NCBI GenBank assembly: GCA_004292515.1
Contig: RDXB01000068.1
Span: forward strand, 1-50,368
DNA: 50,368 nt
Source of the DNA: Oscillatoriales cyanobacterium
GTDB lineage: Bacteria; Cyanobacteriota; Cyanobacteriia; CACIAM-69d
Reading direction: 5' to 3'
Each line of letters opens with the position of its first letter. Position 1 is the stretch's first letter. A program made the translations under genes and the position numbers. Of the stretch, positions 19,935 through 27,007 are shown in pieces. Below the pieces are notes generated by a model that was given only the letters and a program-made list of their open reading frames with translations, had not been told where the DNA came from and searched no databases.

Positions 19935-19968
19935 ATTATCAAAACGATTGTGCGATCATTTTGATAAT
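19935..19968. promoter_or_regulatory. Fur-like operator upstream of the iron-binding protein gene
   Basis: Perfect inverted repeat ATTATCAAAA / TTTTGATAAT with 14 bp between the arms, overlapped on its right by GATAATTATTGTCAACAATG, which resembles the Fur consensus GATAATGATAATCATTATC. It lies about 70-100 bp before the start of a ferric-iron binding protein gene, so iron-dependent repression by Fur is the simple reading. Binding by Fur is inferred, not shown. Confidence 0.6.
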
Positions 19969-20033
19969 TATTGTCAACAATGATATTCTTGCTAAAAACC
20001 CAGCATTCAACTAGTCCGTTCCTAACGCTAAAA

Positions 20034-21095
20034 ATGATGAATAAGGTAAAGCGCCGGGCATTTCTCGCAGGTAGCTCGGCCCTGGCAACCCTCGCCCTCG
20101 GCGGTTTGAAAGCAGCCCGCGCTCAAGGGGCCAGTGGCGAACTGAATCTGTACTCAGGGCGACACTACGAAAGCGATCGACAAATCTACGAAGCCTTTAC
20201 CCAAACGACAGGCATCAAGATCAACCTGATTGAAGGCAGCGCCGATGCCTTAATGGAACGCATCATGTCAGAGGGAGCCAACAGCCCCGCTGACGTTTTC
20301 GTTACCGTGGATGCCGGTCGGTTGTGGTTAGCCGATCGCGCCGGTCTATTTCAGCCCATCACCCAAAGCGCAGCACCCAACCTATACCGCGCAGTGCCCA
20401 GCAACTTGCGCCACCCCAACGGTCACTGGTTTGCGGTATCCCGACGGTCTCGGGTGATCGTCTACAACAAGAGCATGGTCAACCCGGCGGATCTATCGAC
20501 CTACGAAGCACTGGCCGACTCCCGCTGGCGAGGCAAAATCCTGGTTCGGACATCGGGCCACGTTTACAACCAGTCCCTGGTGGGCGAACTGATCGACGTT
20601 TTGGGCGAATCAGCCACCGAAAGCTGGGCCCGCAACGTCGTCGCCAATTTTGCACGGCCCCCGGAAGGCAACGACACAGCCCAAATCAAGGCCTGTGCGG
20701 CTGGCCAAGGCTCGCTGGCGATCGCCAACACCTACTATCTACCGCGTTTGGTCAACTCCAAAGATCCTGCTGAACGCGAAATTGCTGCTAAGGTCGGTGT
20801 CTTCTTCCCCAACCAGCGCGATCGCGGAGCCCACATCAATATCAGCGGCGCTGGTGTCCTAAAAACAGCCAAGAATCCTCAAGCTGCCACTAAGTTCATC
20901 GAGTTTTTGCTCACACAAAAAATTCAAGAATCCTTTGCCAAGAATGGCTATGAGTACCCCATCTTGGAAGGCATTAGTCTCGATCCTGTGCTGGCTAGCT
21001 TTGGTCAGTTCAAGTCTTCTACCCGAAGCGCCAACGTTTTTGGTGGCAACAATGAAAAAGCCCTGAAACTCATGGATCGTGCGGGCTGGCGTTAA
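20034..21095 (+). CDS. Ferric-iron ABC transporter substrate-binding protein (FutA/IdiA type), Tat-exported
   Basis: 353 residues from ATG 20034 ([20 protein letters not shown]). The N-terminus is a twin-arginine signal (KRRAFLAG, hydrophobic core, cleavage near ARAQG). The mature part is a periplasmic binding fold of the FbpA/FutA family: [36 protein letters not shown], and the Tyr pair in [14 protein letters not shown] typical of Fe3+ ligands. FutA proteins bind Fe3+ for the FutB/FutC importer or protect photosystem II (IdiA). The permease and ATPase genes are not adjacent. Upstream starts at 19971 and 19980 are in frame but would overlap the Fur-like region. Confidence 0.92.
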
Positions 21096-21163: not shown

Positions 21164-21270
21164 TTCTTATCTCAATTTTTTATCTCAATTGTTTGGAATT
21201 GCACGAGAAGACACGTTTGAGATAGGTAGGGATGCAAGCCCTAGTTTATGAACGAGAGTCTATAAACCTC

Positions 21271-21306
21271 AGTTCATGAAATATCAGTTCATGAAATATC
21301 AGTTCA
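21271..21306. repeat. 15-bp tandem repeat reaching a stop codon
   Basis: Unit CAGTTCATGAAATAT twice and then CAGTTCA, running into the stop codon (TGA at 21304-21306, minus strand) of the TonB-like gene. Confidence 0.8.
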
Positions 21307-22206
21307 CCCAAAAATGATCGCCCCTACTTGCCCCTGCACCTGTGTCGAGATCACGTAGTAATAGCCAATAATTTTGGCTGACTGACCACTGTTGGGCTGG
21401 GAAACTTCAAACTCCCGCGCGGCCTCTGTATTTTCATAAATGCTGGGCAATTCTCGCACTTCCACACCCGACCCCAGGGAGTTTTGGATTAACTCTGGGG
21501 TCACACTGTGGACACTGAAGTTATCAGGCAAGCTATAGCAACTTTGGCCGGTGGCACAGGCCGTTTGACCGGCATCCAAGCCCACCAATCCGGGCAATCC
21601 CTGGGGGGTGGGGGGAGGATCGACCGGGGGAATCGATCCCGGATTGGGGCTGGGGAGAGGCGACCCACTGGGGCTGGGGGGGGTGCGGAGATCGGGGGTG
21701 GGCGACTGCTTGGGGCTGGTGGATGGCTGCTGGGTGGGCGAGGAAGTTGGGCGCGATCGCCGCTGCTGGGTGGGGCGATTTGCGGTCGATGATGCAGCCG
21801 GGCGATCGCGACTCTGGGAGGACTTTGGGGGTTTGGGGGCCTGGGTGGCGGGCGATCGATTGGGTGATGGCATGGGCGTTGATCGTGGCCCAGCCGAACG
21901 GATCAGGCCCACCGAAACGGGTTTTTCTGGGTTCACCAGGGGCAAGGTCGCAGGTTTTTTGGCCTTTTGCATCGGCAATAGCAACACCCCCACGTGAATC
22001 GCCACGGATATTGCGGCTCCCACCCCGATCGCACCCCAAACCAACCAGCGATCGGTGGGCTGCCCCATCGAGTCCACGGTGGGGAGGGAACGGGGGCGAT
22101 CGGGCTGGCCAGTCAGATCAATTTCATCAGCCCGATCAGCGACATCAGCCCGGTCGGGGTTGTAGGTGTAAATTGACCCTTCTTCAGCCAAGTCCTTAGC
22201 CCTCAT
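21304..22206 (-). CDS. TonB-like energy-transducing protein, atypical C-terminus
   Basis: 300 residues. Residues 1-52 are cytoplasmic and acidic; one membrane segment follows (LVWGAIGVGAAISVAIHVGV, about 55-78); residues 80-205 are a Pro/Ser-rich spacer like the TonB stalk; the last 90 residues form a small domain with two Cys (TACATGQSC). The membrane segment contains Ser67-x-x-x-His71 (SVAIH), matching the SxxxH motif that couples E. coli TonB (SVCIH) to ExbB/ExbD. No YP-type C-terminal TonB box-binding motif is seen, so the partner it pulls on is unknown. It overlaps the upstream pentapeptide gene by 4 nt (ATGA), and exbB/exbD homologues lie 0.8 kb away, divergently. Function is inferred from motif and context. 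Confidence 0.7.
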   Translation of the reverse strand: MRAKDLAEEGSIYTYNPDRADVADRADEIDLTGQPDRPRSLPTVDSMGQPTDRWLVWGAIGVGAAISVAIHVGVLLLPMQKAKKPATLPLVNPEKPVSVGLIRSAGPRSTPMPSPNRSPATQAPKPPKSSQSRDRPAASSTANRPTQQRRSRPTSSPTQQPSTSPKQSPTPDLRTPPSPSGSPLPSPNPGSIPPVDPPPTPQGLPGLVGLDAGQTACATGQSCYSLPDNFSVHSVTPELIQNSLGSGVEVRELPSIYENTEAAREFEVSQPNSGQSAKIIGYYYVISTQVQGQVGAIIFG

Positions 22207-22721
22207 CGTCCCTGACTCCCATTGGGTAAGGTTGTCCCTGTAGCCTTGACATCACTCAGATCGAGCTGTTTCGGCAAGGCATTTAATAAGTCAGCCTCGC
22301 TAATATCCGCTCCCGTCAGTTTGACCTCACTCAGGTTGGCTCCCCGAAGATAAGCCTGCACCAGAGTGGCCTTCGTCAAATTTGCCCTTGATAGGTTGGC
22401 CTGGGCCAGGCCGGCCCGCTGAAAATTGGCCCCACTCAGGTCGGCCTGCTGAAAATTTGCGCCATCTAGTTTTGCTTGGCTAAAATTTGCGCCGCTGAGT
22501 TTAGCGCCTTGGAAGTTGGCCCCGTTGAGATTGGCTCCGGCAAAATCCTTTTGGCGCAGGTCTCGGCCGGCAAAGTCGCACTGAGGACAGTCGTTTGGGT
22601 TCGGGCTGTTTGCTGGGTTGGCCTTGCTTGAAGCGGCAGGGACAACCGGACACCCCCCCAGCAGCACCGCCACCGCCAACACCGGCAATTGCACCATCGC
22701 GCCGCTAAAGTAGCGGTTCAC
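22203..22721 (-). CDS. Pentapeptide-repeat lipoprotein
   Basis: 172 residues from GTG 22721 (reads MNRYFSGAMVQLPVLAV). A lipobox-like LLGGC follows the hydrophobic core, so the protein is probably lipid-anchored. After a short linker with Cys pair CPQC come about 20 tandem pentapeptides of the A(D/N)LxX class (AGANLNGANFQGAKLSGANF), which fold as a right-handed beta helix. I chose 22721 because AGAGG lies just upstream and gives a complete signal peptide; an ATG at 22799 is in frame but buries it. The stop overlaps the ATG of the TonB-like gene by 4 nt (ATGA), so the two are translationally coupled. Confidence 0.8.
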   Translation of the reverse strand: MNRYFSGAMVQLPVLAVAVLLGGCPVVPAASSKANPANSPNPNDCPQCDFAGRDLRQKDFAGANLNGANFQGAKLSGANFSQAKLDGANFQQADLSGANFQRAGLAQANLSRANLTKATLVQAYLRGANLSEVKLTGADISEADLLNALPKQLDLSDVKATGTTLPNGSQGR

Positions 22722-22990
22722 TGTGCCTCTTGCCTCGTGGCCAACATTGCTGTGTGTGGTCGATCGCTGTGGGTTGCAGGCAAACCATGAATTAAGCATA
22801 TTGAGTAGGCCATTACTAACTCAAAGTTTTCTTATTAAGCTTTAGAAAAACTCTTAGCCAATGCAATTTCTTCTTTGAGAATTAGTCGCATTAAATAGTA
22901 CCATACTGTTTTCGTAACTGTTTTCGTAGCCCTAGTGCCTACTGGCAGGTTGCGACGGGCTGCGATTGATATGTGAGAAGGACTGCGCCT
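22722..22990. promoter_or_regulatory. Divergent promoter region between the TonB-like and exb operons
   Basis: AT-rich 270-bp region between divergently read genes, so both promoters must lie here. It contains a short direct repeat (CTGTTTTCGTA twice near 22912-22930). No convincing Fur box or -10/-35 pair can be assigned. Confidence 0.4.
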
Positions 22991-23689
22991 GTGACCCGAG
23001 TTTATGACTTGCTAATTGCTGGGGGACCAGTGATGTGGCCGCTGTTGTTGCTTTCGGCGATGACCCTGGCGACTGGGATCGAGCGAGTCATTTTTTGGGC
23101 ACGCTTGCTGACCCGTGAAGATCGCATTGTGCAAGAGGTTTTGGCGGCGGCGAGATACAACTTGGAGGATGCCAAAGCCATTGCCGACAGTGCAAGAGAT
23201 TTACCGATCGGGCGGTTTTTGTTGGCTCCCTTGCAGTTGCGCGACCCATCACCCGAAACCTTTGGCCTGGCGATGGAAGCGGCGGGCGATCGAGAGTTTC
23301 TGCAAATGCGGCGGGGCGATAAGTTACTGGAAACCACGATCGCGATCGCCCCGCTGTTGGGGTTGCTGGGAACCGTGACCGGGCTGATTGCCACCTTCAG
23401 CAACTTGGAAATTGGGGGCGGCAGTGGCACGGCGGGGGCGAGTGCGGCGGCCGCCGGGATTGCCGAAGCCTTGCTGACAACTGCTTTTGGCATGATTGTG
23501 GCGATCGCGGCCCTGGCGATTTTTCGGGTGATGGTGACCTTTCAAGATGGCCAAGTTGATTATTTTGGCGATGTGGGCACTCGGCTGGAATTGATCTATC
23601 GGCAATATTGGTATGAGCCGGGGCGATCGCGATCGGCGGTTGACCAAGCCCCCACAACCACCGATGAGCCAACCCCGCGATCGCCCTAG
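22991..23689 (+). CDS. exbB: ExbB/TolQ/MotA family proton-channel protein
   Basis: About 232 residues, three membrane segments: GPVMWPLLLLSAMTLATGIE near the start, then LLETTIAIAPLLGLLGTVTGLIATF and AEALLTTAFGMIVAIAALAIF. The latter two carry the conserved Gly-rich and Thr residues of ExbB/TolQ, which line the proton path with the ExbD Asp. The start GTG 22991 has AGAAGG 9 nt upstream; a GTG at 22973 is in frame. Two exbD-like genes follow on the same strand, and a TonB-like gene is divergent. Together they form a plausible energy-transduction complex in the plasma membrane. Confidence 0.92.
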   Translation: MTRVYDLLIAGGPVMWPLLLLSAMTLATGIERVIFWARLLTREDRIVQEVLAAARYNLEDAKAIADSARDLPIGRFLLAPLQLRDPSPETFGLAMEAAGDREFLQMRRGDKLLETTIAIAPLLGLLGTVTGLIATFSNLEIGGGSGTAGASAAAAGIAEALLTTAFGMIVAIAALAIFRVMVTFQDGQVDYFGDVGTRLELIYRQYWYEPGRSRSAVDQAPTTTDEPTPRSP

Positions 23690-23805
23690 GCCTTCCCCTC
23701 CGTCACCTGCCCGTTGCTTGAAAGTGATGAACGCTGCAAAATCCCCAACTGTCCAGCCCCAAAGGATATCTGACAGACCCAAACCGATTCGCCATATACC
23801 CAGAT

Positions 23806-23882
23806 CGACACAGACAAGGAGCTTAAGCCCCTTGCCCCCACGGCTATTGATGCTTGGCCAGGGCCAAAAGATGTGTGTCGAA
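23806..23882 (+). repeat. Dispersed repeat family B, copy B2
   Basis: Snap-back core AAGGAGCTTAAGCCCCTT, then CCCCCACGGCTATTGATGCTTGG and a GGGCCAAAAG block, matching B1 at 5161-5250. It lies between exbB and the first exbD gene and could interrupt or attenuate cotranscription. Confidence 0.75.
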
Positions 23883-23955
23883 CATTCTCTGATTAAAAAA
23901 TCTAACTATGCCTTAAAACAGCTATGGCCACCCACCCCCAGCACATGCACATCCT

Positions 23956-24414
23956 ATGAGATTTCGATCTTCTAAGCGGCGATCGAGCCTGCCGGAAATT
24001 GATCTAGTGCCGCTGCTCGATGTGTTAATGAGTGTGCTGACGTTCTTCATTGCCCTGTCCCTCTCGCTCACTGAGCAAATTATTTCTGATCTGCGTTTAC
24101 CCCAAATGCAAAATGCTGGGCGATCGGGATCAGTGGCGGCCGGTCAAAATCGCCAACCAACGAATCAGCCCCCACCGCCGCCAAACACGTTGGAAATTGC
24201 TTTAAATCGACAGGGCAATATTTTAGTTGCTGGACAATTGATCAATAATTCGGCATTGGAACAACTTGTCAATCAACATTTCACAAAATATCCGCAAGCT
24301 ATCCTCACGGTGAAAGCCGATCGTGCCTTACCCTACGGTCAAATTTCCAGGCTCCTCCAACGCCTGCAAGCCATCGGAGGAAAACGTATTTCGCTGACGT
24401 TTACCCGCAGTTAA
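23956..24414 (+). CDS. exbD: ExbD/TolR family protein with intact membrane Asp
   Basis: 152 residues: short basic N-terminus, one membrane segment (LVPLLDVLMSVLTFFIALSL), a Pro/Gln-rich linker and a periplasmic domain. Asp22 in PLLDVLMSV corresponds to the essential proton-carrying Asp of ExbD (E. coli Asp25). It is 266 bp downstream of exbB, with a repeat element in the gap, and is followed 130 bp later by a second exbD-like gene. Confidence 0.9.
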   Translation: MRFRSSKRRSSLPEIDLVPLLDVLMSVLTFFIALSLSLTEQIISDLRLPQMQNAGRSGSVAAGQNRQPTNQPPPPPNTLEIALNRQGNILVAGQLINNSALEQLVNQHFTKYPQAILTVKADRALPYGQISRLLQRLQAIGGKRISLTFTRS

Positions 24415-24547
24415 TTTGCGAACTGATCTACGGCCTTCGATCGCAGATTTTACGATTCCTCTACGATTGCTCATTGTCAGTTTGCTGAACTCGATTAGCA
24501 CCTAATCAAGCCCTATTTAATTTTTTTGAAAGTATTGAATTTAACCT

Positions 24548-24982
24548 ATGAAATTTAGAGCTGGGAAGCGACCCAAAAAAATGCCAACCGTTAATCTTGT
24601 GCCAATGATGACGGCCATGTTGGCTATTTTGGCGTTTTTTGTGGTACTTTCAACCTCTCTGACCACCAGTGAACGTACTGATGTTCAACTGGCTCCCACC
24701 AGCTCCCAAGAGGGCCCCAGCACCAACGCCAATGCACCGACCACGCCGCCTCTGTCAGTCTGGCTGGATCGGAATGGGCAAGCCTACCTCGATCGCAACC
24801 CGATCGCAACCGCGGCCCTGGATGCAGCCATCCAAGCCTACTTGCAGCGATCCCCTGAGGGAACAGTCACCTTGGATGCCGATCCACAACTGCCCTACGA
24901 ACAGGTGCTGGTGTGGCTTGAACGCTTGAAGCCGGTGGCGGGCGATCGCATTACGTTGGCGATCGCCGAACCGGCCCCCTAG
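24548..24982 (+). CDS. ExbD-like protein lacking the membrane Asp
   Basis: 144 residues with the same layout as the preceding ExbD: basic N-terminus, membrane segment LVPMMTAMLAILAFFVVLS, linker, periplasmic domain ending LPYEQVLVWLERLKPVAGD. Aligned to the first ExbD without gaps, Asp22 is replaced by Thr22 and Asp16 by Asn16, so this copy cannot carry protons in the usual way. It may be a structural partner in a hetero-dimer with the intact ExbD, or a decoy. The family is otherwise well conserved, including the VTLDADPQLPY block, so it is not a decaying pseudogene. Confidence 0.85.
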   Translation: MKFRAGKRPKKMPTVNLVPMMTAMLAILAFFVVLSTSLTTSERTDVQLAPTSSQEGPSTNANAPTTPPLSVWLDRNGQAYLDRNPIATAALDAAIQAYLQRSPEGTVTLDADPQLPYEQVLVWLERLKPVAGDRITLAIAEPAP

Positions 24983-25040: not shown

Positions 25041-25625
25041 TCACTGGGGCGATCGCAAAATCCACTGCACCGCATCTAGCAAATTGCTGGCCACAAAATC
25101 CGGCTGAGTGGTGTGTTGATAGCTACCCGCCAACACCTGCTCCCCAAATCCGGTCGTTACCAAAATACCCGTGCAACCGGCATTCTTGGCGAGGTCAATA
25201 TCCGTTGCCTTGTCGCCCACCATCACACTACGCGACAAATCGAGATCCCAATCCCAAGCCGCCGCCACCAGCATTCCGGTGTTGGGCTTGCGCCAAGTGC
25301 TGTAGCGGGTGAATTCAGGATCTTTGCCGCCCTCGGGGCCGCTCAGATACGGACAATAGTAGAGCGCATCCAGCTTGGCCCCGGCTTCTTGATCCAGCAA
25401 GCGACAGAGCCGATCGTGCAGCGCATCCACGTGGGATTGGGGATAGTAGCCCCGAGCGGGGCCGGCTTGGTTGGAAGCCAAACAGCAAAACCAGCCCGCA
25501 TCGTTCAGTTGCCGCACCGCTTGGGCCGTGCCGGAGATCAAGTGCAGGTCTTCGAGGCGGTGAATGTAGCCCGCCTCTTGGTTCAGGACACCATCGCGAT
25601 CGAGAAATACCGCCGGTCTAGACAC
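25041..25625 (-). CDS. HAD-IIIA phosphatase, GmhB-like
   Basis: 194 residues. HAD motif I FLDRDGVLN (nucleophile Asp9, acid/base Asp11), motif II CLASNQAG, and motif III/IV WRKPNTGML with VMVGDKATDIDLAKNAG. GmhB enzymes hydrolyse heptose 1,7-bisphosphate. Here the zinc site is eroded: the usual C-x-H and C-x-C-RKP read CPY (Cys91) and YSTWRKP, so only one ligand remains. The GTG start (25625) lies inside the end of the GT9 gene, an 8-nt overlap, implying coupled translation. Substrate is uncertain; heptose is not typical of cyanobacterial LPS. Confidence 0.82.
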   Translation of the reverse strand: MSRPAVFLDRDGVLNQEAGYIHRLEDLHLISGTAQAVRQLNDAGWFCCLASNQAGPARGYYPQSHVDALHDRLCRLLDQEAGAKLDALYYCPYLSGPEGGKDPEFTRYSTWRKPNTGMLVAAAWDWDLDLSRSVMVGDKATDIDLAKNAGCTGILVTTGFGEQVLAGSYQHTTQPDFVASNLLDAVQWILRSPQ

Positions 25626-26580
25626 CCAATTTCTCCAGAATGGTGCTGGGAGAGATATCGCTCATTCGATCGGTCGGGGACTTGATGGCTACAAAGCGAT
25701 CGTCACCAGGCGGCAACAGCTTGGCGGGATCGGTGGGGCCAAACATGGCGATCGTGTAAGTACCCAGGGCCACGGAAATATGCATCGGGCCACTATCCCC
25801 ACAGAGCATCACATTCGCCCCCGCCGTGATCGCCGCGAGTTGGCCAATATTGTTGGGAGTTACCAACTTCAAACTCGGACAAGCCGCCTGCAACGTCGCC
25901 ACAAAATCCGTGTCATCGGGCCCCTTCACCAGCACGATCGGCAGTTCCGGCTTGGCCTGTTGCACCTTGGTCAGCACCGCTTTCCAGGCTTCCACCGGAT
26001 AGACCTTATCAAAGCCCTTCAGCTTGGCCATGGCACTGGAACCACCATGCACCAGCAAATACCCCTGGCCTTTGATGCCCAAGCGGGCTTGCTCTGCTTC
26101 TGCCCAAGACAGTTCCTTTTGGGGCACTTGCAACGACAGGGTGGGCCGAGCAGCCGCGATCCCAAAACCACGCACCAAGTCGTGGTAGAGATCGCCCGCG
26201 TATTGCTCCAGGTTCAGGGGCACAGGATCGGTCAAAAACATCTTGCCGCCGGCCGCATAGCCCACGCGCTTGGGAATCCCCGTCAGCCACAGCAGCAGCC
26301 CCACGGCCCACCGCCGCCCCAACGACAACACCGCGTCATATTCCCGATCGCGGATTGTGCCCAGCAGGTTGCCCCAGTCGGCGGGACTGTTGCGATCTTT
26401 GAAATCAAAGGCGATCGTGTCACGCACGGAGGCACAGACCTGGTAGGCCGCGATCGATCGTGGTTCCACAACCACATCGATTTGCGCCTTGGGATAGGCC
26501 TGTTTCAGTTGGGCCAGGGCGGGGAAAAATAAGATCTGGTCGCCAATGCCACCAGGTACGAGGGCGAGGATCTGCATCAT
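25618..26580 (-). CDS. Glycosyltransferase family 9 protein (heptosyltransferase-like)
   Basis: About 320 residues from ATG 26580. N-terminal ALVPGGIGDQILFFPALAQLK and C-terminal NVMLCGDSGPMHISVALGTYTIAMFGPTDP are the GT9 signatures (ADP-heptose:LPS heptosyltransferase fold, GT-B). It probably adds a sugar to a cell-envelope glycan. The in-frame upstream stretch to 26910 is a repeat-family A copy, so I exclude it. The product is encoded just before a HAD phosphatase of the GmhB type with overlapping genes, a pairing that fits a nucleotide-heptose pathway, but the HAD zinc site is unusual. Confidence 0.85.
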   Translation of the reverse strand: MMQILALVPGGIGDQILFFPALAQLKQAYPKAQIDVVVEPRSIAAYQVCASVRDTIAFDFKDRNSPADWGNLLGTIRDREYDAVLSLGRRWAVGLLLWLTGIPKRVGYAAGGKMFLTDPVPLNLEQYAGDLYHDLVRGFGIAAARPTLSLQVPQKELSWAEAEQARLGIKGQGYLLVHGGSSAMAKLKGFDKVYPVEAWKAVLTKVQQAKPELPIVLVKGPDDTDFVATLQAACPSLKLVTPNNIGQLAAITAGANVMLCGDSGPMHISVALGTYTIAMFGPTDPAKLLPPGDDRFVAIKSPTDRMSDISPSTILEKLGV

Positions 26581-26682
26581 AAAACTCGCGGGGTTGCCAA
26601 GTAGCGGCGGTAAAACAATATCGAAATCTGTGAAATGAAGCCTAGCGGATGTCGCTATTTCCTGAATTGAGGCTAAAACGGT

Positions 26683-26778
26683 TGGTTTTCCGTGCCTCAA
26701 TTGTCCTAACAAGGGGCTTAAGCTCCTTGCCCCCACGATCCGCCAAGGGTGGATGCGGGTCTCAGGTGCAATGACGAC
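26683..26778 (-). repeat. Dispersed repeat family A, copy A4
   Basis: Core reads TGCCTCAATTGTCCTAACAAG, then GGGGCTTAAGCTCC, then CCCACGATCCGCCAAGGGTGG and GGTCTCAGGTGC, the same order as the reverse complement of 48631-48761. Confidence 0.7.
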
Positions 26779-27007
26779 GATCTCTACATTACCGGTAGTG
26801 AGTAATGGTGCTTCGACCCGCGAGGACTTCGCAGGCGAACCCAAATTGCTACGGTCGGGAACCGCTCTTAATTTCGCTCTCAATTTTAAGAGGATCTGCT
26901 CTGGGGTCAACTCGATCGCCCAAATCCACGCCAGGGTTTAGGGAGTATCGTCAACTTACCTAAAACCCTGATGCTGCCGTTGCGCGATCGGGGGGAGCCA
27001 GATGCTC

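Follow-up and report, generated by a model that had tools for sequence, protein, structure and literature searches.

The described systems closest to the one reported here are the TonB-ExbB-ExbD and TolA-TolQR-Pal systems. The Ser-x3-His motif in the membrane helix of TonB and TolA is the contact for ExbB or TolQ (PMC12215075), and a strand of E. coli TonB known as the D-box, ISVTMVT, binds ExbD (PMC10907165, PMC12215075). The locus examined here lies in contig RDXB01000068.1 of an Oscillatoriales cyanobacterium (assembly GCA_004292515.1), in a stretch of 50,368 nucleotides that is called the window below. It encodes a TonB-like protein, one ExbB, two ExbDs, a lipoprotein and the ferric-iron-binding protein FutA. 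The combination probably represents a proton-driven transducer, powered by ExbBD and independent of receptors, that serves ferric-iron uptake by FutABC.

The window system resembles E. coli TonB-ExbB-ExbD in its Ser-x3-His helix, its D-box-like strand, its Pro-rich periplasmic linker and its ExbB and ExbD partners, but it has no TonB_C tip and no receptor, is linked to Fut or Pst, and has an ExbD pair with a single Asp. With TolA-TolQR-Pal it would share a rod driven by the proton motive force, and it has 5:2-type motor genes and a lipoprotein gene nearby. However, no TolA domain was found in the rod, the lipoprotein has pentapeptide repeats and is not Pal, and the linkage is to iron uptake. 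Neither tolB nor pal is among the neighbors of the locus, which are futA, the pentapeptide lipoprotein gene and exbBDD.

SjdR, TonB2 and TonB4 of Anabaena sp. PCC 7120 are also cyanobacterial TonB-like proteins that siderophore uptake does not require. SjdR has a cytoplasmic N-terminal extension, as the window protein does, but is described as short and without a TonB-like periplasmic domain, and TonB2 and TonB4 differ in being described with a TonB-box-binding region (PMC8262864, PMC8597729). The vWA force transducers that work with TolQ likewise have a tip other than TonB_C on a His helix, and a motor with two differing TolR-like proteins (PMC12204202); the window tip differs in being a small two-Cys alpha/beta domain, and its system in being cyanobacterial and tied to fut or pst. 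Myxococcus AglRQS also combines one TolQ/MotA-like protein with two TolR/MotB-like proteins, but AglQ and AglS are both described with a conserved Asp (PMC9389320), whereas ExbD2 of the window has Thr.

The TonB-like gene and its parts are:

21304..22206, minus strand: TonB-like transducer gene, 300 residues, from the open reading frame (ORF) and inspection of the sequence; no Pfam or NCBIfam family
21973..22038, minus strand: membrane helix, residues 57-78, with Ser67-x3-His71, from the sequence and relatives
21898..21918, minus strand: D-box-like strand VSVGLIR, residues 97-103, a candidate ExbD-binding strand, from the sequence, with equivalents in relatives
21304..21564, minus strand: two-Cys C-terminal domain, residues 215-300, with Cys217 and Cys223, a tip of about 90 residues, from the family profile

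Residues 1-56 of the protein form a cytoplasmic N-terminus, followed by a single membrane helix, a Pro-rich linker and the two-Cys domain. An earlier note on this DNA had described a Pro-rich, single-pass protein with the Ser-x-x-x-His motif of TonB at this position, and had proposed that the C-terminus, with two Cys, lacks the standard TonB signature. Both descriptions hold. The sole membrane helix, AISVAIHVGVLLLPM, contains both Ser67 and His71, and the motif is conserved in relatives. The helix His was present in 85 of the 87 TonB-like relatives inspected, the two exceptions being ORFs cut at the 5' end, and Ser at -4 from it was present in at least 63 of the 87, an undercount in that the script took an upstream His in a few rows. 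After the helix, relatives have a strand in which hydrophobic residues alternate (VRITQLP, VKVVxLP) – in the window it reads VSVGLI, against ISVTMV in E. coli. Since the helix His and Ser and the D-box-like strand are present and TonB_C is absent, the TonB-like family appears, on this evidence from sequence, to retain both motor contacts known for TonB, with the far end swapped.

No Pfam or NCBIfam family, including TonB_C, TonB_2 and TolA, matched the whole TonB-like protein, and the tip alone, tested in 20 relatives, matched none of these three in either database. A search of profiles for TonB_C, TolA or another better-fitting family, which the earlier note had suggested, thus found none. 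The tip profile was unrelated to a profile of TonB C-termini from cyanobacteria and E. coli (hhalign probability 0.4%), and a search of the PDB with the tip gave nothing significant. Membership among ordinary TonB proteins was dropped, TonB_C being absent in the Pfam, NCBIfam, profile-profile and PDB searches. Assignment to PepSY_2, UPF0180 or similar Pfam families was also dropped, as the matches were scattered and too weak (best 0.001).

AlphaFold models of the tip were poor to moderate, with a mean pLDDT (predicted local distance difference test) of 46 for three sequences and 61 for one, and about 75 for domain 1 of the protein at locus L036. They predict, with low to moderate confidence and from thin input, the order a-b-b-b-b; Foldseek gave no match of these models to the PDB at E < 0.001. 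A first profile, made from the window protein together with relatives, found the family in 68 of 390 cyanobacterial genomes, and a broader one in 123 of the 390. A possible hybrid form is encoded at locus L021 (12165-14282), close to exbBDD and pstS. This His-helix protein of 705 residues has a repeat resembling TonB_C/TonB_2 that scores slightly under cut-off, and its tip distantly resembles the two-Cys family.

The other features of the locus are:

22973..23689, plus strand: exbB, Pfam MotA_ExbB 1.7e-28, probable start GTG near 22991, placed on the ExbB tree
23956..24414, plus strand: exbD1, with Asp22 (PLLDVLM), Pfam ExbD
24548..24982, plus strand: exbD2, with Thr22 (PMMTAML) in place of the Asp, Pfam ExbD and alignment to E. 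coli-type ExbD/TolR
22203..22799, minus strand: pentapeptide-repeat lipoprotein gene, lipobox LGGC, CPQCD motif, Pfam Pentapeptide 2e-32, paired likewise in relatives
19971..21095, plus strand: futA, periplasmic ferric-iron-binding protein with a predicted Tat signal, probably starting at 20034/20037 and running toward the TonB-like gene in convergent orientation
19954..19981, plus strand: overlapping Fur-box-like repeats just upstream of futA, from a Fur-consensus scan

The end of futA is 209 bp from the stop of the TonB-like gene. Among ferric-binding proteins of solved structure, from cyanobacteria and elsewhere, FutA matches 6g7n (2e-118), 2pt1 (3e-116) and 2voz (1e-109 or better), and the three top Fur-consensus matches among the ca. 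50,350 positions scanned in the window, at 13-14 of 19 positions, are all upstream of futA. This bears out the earlier placement of an iron-binding gene about 0.2 kb away behind a Fur-like site. The divergent exbB-exbD-exbD genes that had been placed beside the TonB-like gene are where stated, but they do not adjoin it directly, as the lipoprotein gene sits between it and exbB. The lipoprotein gene is directly upstream of the TonB-like gene with a 4-bp overlap, and the two are therefore probably co-transcribed. Immediately after exbD2, on the opposite strand, are genes for a HAD hydrolase and a glycosyltransferase of family 9, heptosyltransferase-like (window 25041-26910).

Conservation of this neighborhood, which the earlier note had left as a check, was found across cyanobacteria. 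Family members with a single tip were examined at 65 loci from 38 genera and 10 families, counting neighbors within 6 kb; kinship among loci is handled only in part, through these genus and family counts. At least one of futA, futB and futC was found at 57 of the 65 loci, which cover 33 of the 38 genera and 9 of the 10 families, a pentapeptide protein gene at 25, and exbB, clustered with one or two exbD genes, at 8 loci, the window included (6 genera, 5 families). In these five families exbB comes with the gene set seen in the window. L093 is a ninth exbB-linked case, with a frameshifted TonB-like gene. Three genomes of other families (L119-L121) have content like that of the window, with exbB-exbD-exbD divergent from futA, the TonB-like gene and the pentapeptide lipoprotein gene. 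In a genome of 5.5 Mb that has about five exbB genes and four fut genes, linkage to either by chance would be expected at ca. 1%.

A second subfamily, of ca. 390 residues and with tandem tips in those examined, was found at 24 loci in 16 genera. These two-tip genes adjoin exbB-exbD at 17 of the 24 loci (14 of 21 without three loci that were found via exbB), and pstS is beside them at 8 of the 24. A TonB-like gene is also associated with phosphate uptake genes in the window genome itself (G000). On contig C49 (L172, 131000-145000), a TonB-like gene is followed by pstB, pstA, pstC and pstS and then by exbB-exbD-exbD. The pst genes were confirmed, and both ExbDs keep the Asp.

TonB-dependent receptors (PF00593) number zero in the window genome, an assembly 99.8% complete, compared with 2-28 in its relatives. 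It has no TonB_C match over cut-off, five MotA_ExbB and six ExbD matches, and seven OprB porins. With the C49 cluster, this is a genome without receptors that has two ExbB-ExbD-ExbD clusters, one with a component of an iron importer and one with the phosphate importer, and a TonB-like protein is encoded in both. The earlier idea of a non-standard outer-membrane target gains support from the lack of TonB-dependent receptors. The relatives G001-G005 carry a TonB_C protein over cut-off alongside the TonB-like gene. A 487-residue Ser-x3-His helix protein of the window genome (L058 280-1740, contig C105) has a sub-threshold TonB_C match, and like matches occur in G001 and G002. Contigs C2 and C52 of the window genome have exbB-like genes with no adjoining exbD, and C56 has an exbD with no exbB.

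In the ExbB tree, the ExbBs linked to single-tip or two-tip genes form one clade (99/95), apart from the ExbBs linked to receptors (100/100); several branches are long, and detail inside the clade is uncertain. Both ExbDs of the window retain the rest of the ExbD domain (9e-20 and 6e-20 in Pfam), with Asp22 in ExbD1 and Thr22 in ExbD2 both aligned to the proton-carrying Asp25 of E. coli ExbD. Exactly one ExbD has Asn or Thr at this site in 13 of 16 exbB-exbD-exbD clusters – the 16 being L172, L178 and 14 others, among them L017, where the second exbD is ca. 1 kb downstream – and Asp is present in both ExbDs at L025, L172 and L178. In current models, the ExbD/TolR dimer passes one proton per step via these Asp residues (PMC12215075). 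On these models, a pair with a single Asp is unexpected. No description of such a pair was found in the literature searched, which is not proof of absence. The Asp-less ExbDs group on the tree and have one or a few origins; repeated origin of the loss in ExbD2 was not upheld, as the tree cannot separate one origin from several. Pairs with one Asp-less ExbD were seen in the window and at L009, L014, L021, L029, L032, L034, L037, L093 and L119-L121. A single Asp-less exbD accompanies exbB at L026, L027, L030, L031, L033 and others, where an Asp-bearing partner was not located.

In the proposed mechanism, the motor would be an ExbB pentamer with the ExbD1/ExbD2 pair. The TonB-like protein would dock on ExbB via Ser67 and His71 and on the ExbD pair via the D-box-like strand, its Pro-rich linker would cross the periplasm, and the two-Cys tip would act on a partner at the outer-membrane or peptidoglycan side. 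Its likely partner would be a porin of the OprB type or the pentapeptide lipoprotein, which is probably co-transcribed, or the two together. Movement of the rod by the motor would favor entry of Fe3+, which would be loaded onto FutA and imported by FutBC. The motifs, the gene linkage, the family and the absence of TonB_C and of receptors are observations at the level of sequence, and with them the coupling of the TonB-like protein to ExbBD and to iron uptake appears well supported. From these we infer an outer-membrane target for the tip. According to PMC7676907, which cites Jiang 2015 and Qiu 2018, uptake of inorganic iron by Synechocystis is reported to have an essential requirement for ExbB-ExbD (Jiang 2015), and porins are implicated in the residual inorganic iron uptake there.

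Several observations weigh against this mechanism. Complex formation and force transfer among the TonB-like protein, ExbB and ExbD are inferred. The only outer-membrane partner encoded in the cluster is the lipoprotein, and its location there is a prediction. In the closest relatives, G001-G004, the TonB-like gene retains futA and the lipoprotein gene but exbBDD is not adjacent, so that, as judged by gene order, the Fut system is the stable partner and exbBDD a recurrent one. On the tree, the window ExbB pairs as sister with the pst-linked ExbB from the same genome and genus (98/92), a sign that it may have arisen by duplication; with the separation of exbBDD in the closest relatives, the adjacency seen in the window may be a recent arrangement. 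The window copy of the TonB-like protein also stops 20-30 residues before the C-terminus of its homologs. A 15-bp tandem repeat, ATATCAGTTCATGAA, lies at the 3' end of the gene (window 21265-21306) where these residues are missing, and the copy may therefore be impaired. Finally, receptors are present in 98 of the 123 family-positive genomes (odds ratio 4.2, kinship ignored). The idea of the family as a substitute for receptors was dropped, as this co-occurrence is above chance, and since family and receptors occur together in most genomes the system does not simply stand in for them.

Of the alternatives, the one that survives best is that the tip acts on the binding protein or the ATP-binding cassette (ABC) importer, with an ExbBD-driven rod capturing or moving loaded FutA, or PstS in the sister system. 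The neighbors are indeed binding proteins for two unrelated substrates, and FusB offers a precedent for a TonB-like protein that touches its substrate directly (PMC7593965). This is nevertheless unlikely: ABC import runs on ATP and has no need of another motor, the Pro-rich linker is like TonB linkers that span the periplasm, and the lipoprotein partner points to the outer membrane.

Less probable again is a role in envelope upkeep like that of Tol-Pal or SjdR, in which rod and lipoprotein would serve to tether the outer membrane or peptidoglycan or to reshape it, the linkage to uptake genes being indirect. The adjoining lipoprotein gene would fit this, as would the roles of Anabaena SjdR in septal peptidoglycan and of TonB2 in outer-membrane properties (PMC8262864, PMC8597729), but specific linkage to fut or pst over about 10 families and the nearby Fur-like box fit nutrient uptake better. 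It is very doubtful that the protein is a diverged ordinary TonB whose receptors escape the PF00593 search through divergence or are absent from the draft assembly. The receptors of the 98 family-positive genomes favor this, but a nearly complete assembly with none among relatives that have them, a tip with no profile similarity to TonB_C, and the separate TonB_C protein in G001-G005 all argue otherwise. Least probable is a decaying relic with a coincidental exbBDD neighbor copied from the pst cluster, which the C-terminal loss next to the tandem repeat, the long branches of the window ExbB, ExbD1 and ExbD2 and the separation of exbBDD in close relatives would suggest, but which sits poorly with an intact reading frame, membrane motif, D-box-like strand and Cys pair, a preserved four-gene set and intact ExbD1 and ExbD2 frames.

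Beyond the window locus, the receptor-independent transducer may belong to a cyanobacterial class of proton-driven uptake machines, a proposal that is more tentative and rather less secure. Its members would combine an ExbB motor with TonB-like rods that have two-Cys tips, would be dedicated to Fut for Fe3+ and to Pst for phosphate, and in many cases would have an asymmetric ExbD pair with one Asp. In marine bacteria including cyanobacteria, periplasmic accumulation of phosphate is dependent on the proton motive force, through a mechanism described as unknown (PMC7250820); both this and the Synechocystis iron reports would fit the TonB-like family. If true, the class would provide the machine behind two reported puzzles: why inorganic iron uptake needs ExbB-ExbD, and how the proton motive force comes to govern phosphate accumulation in the periplasm. 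The Ton motor could then serve small inorganic ions without receptors, and 5:2 motors may run on a single proton-carrying Asp. The position of rod relatives next to iron or phosphate importers in many cyanobacteria suggests a new way of powering nutrient passage across the outer membrane. The TonB-like family, tied to ExbBD and to Fut or Pst, offers named genes with which both puzzles can be tested.

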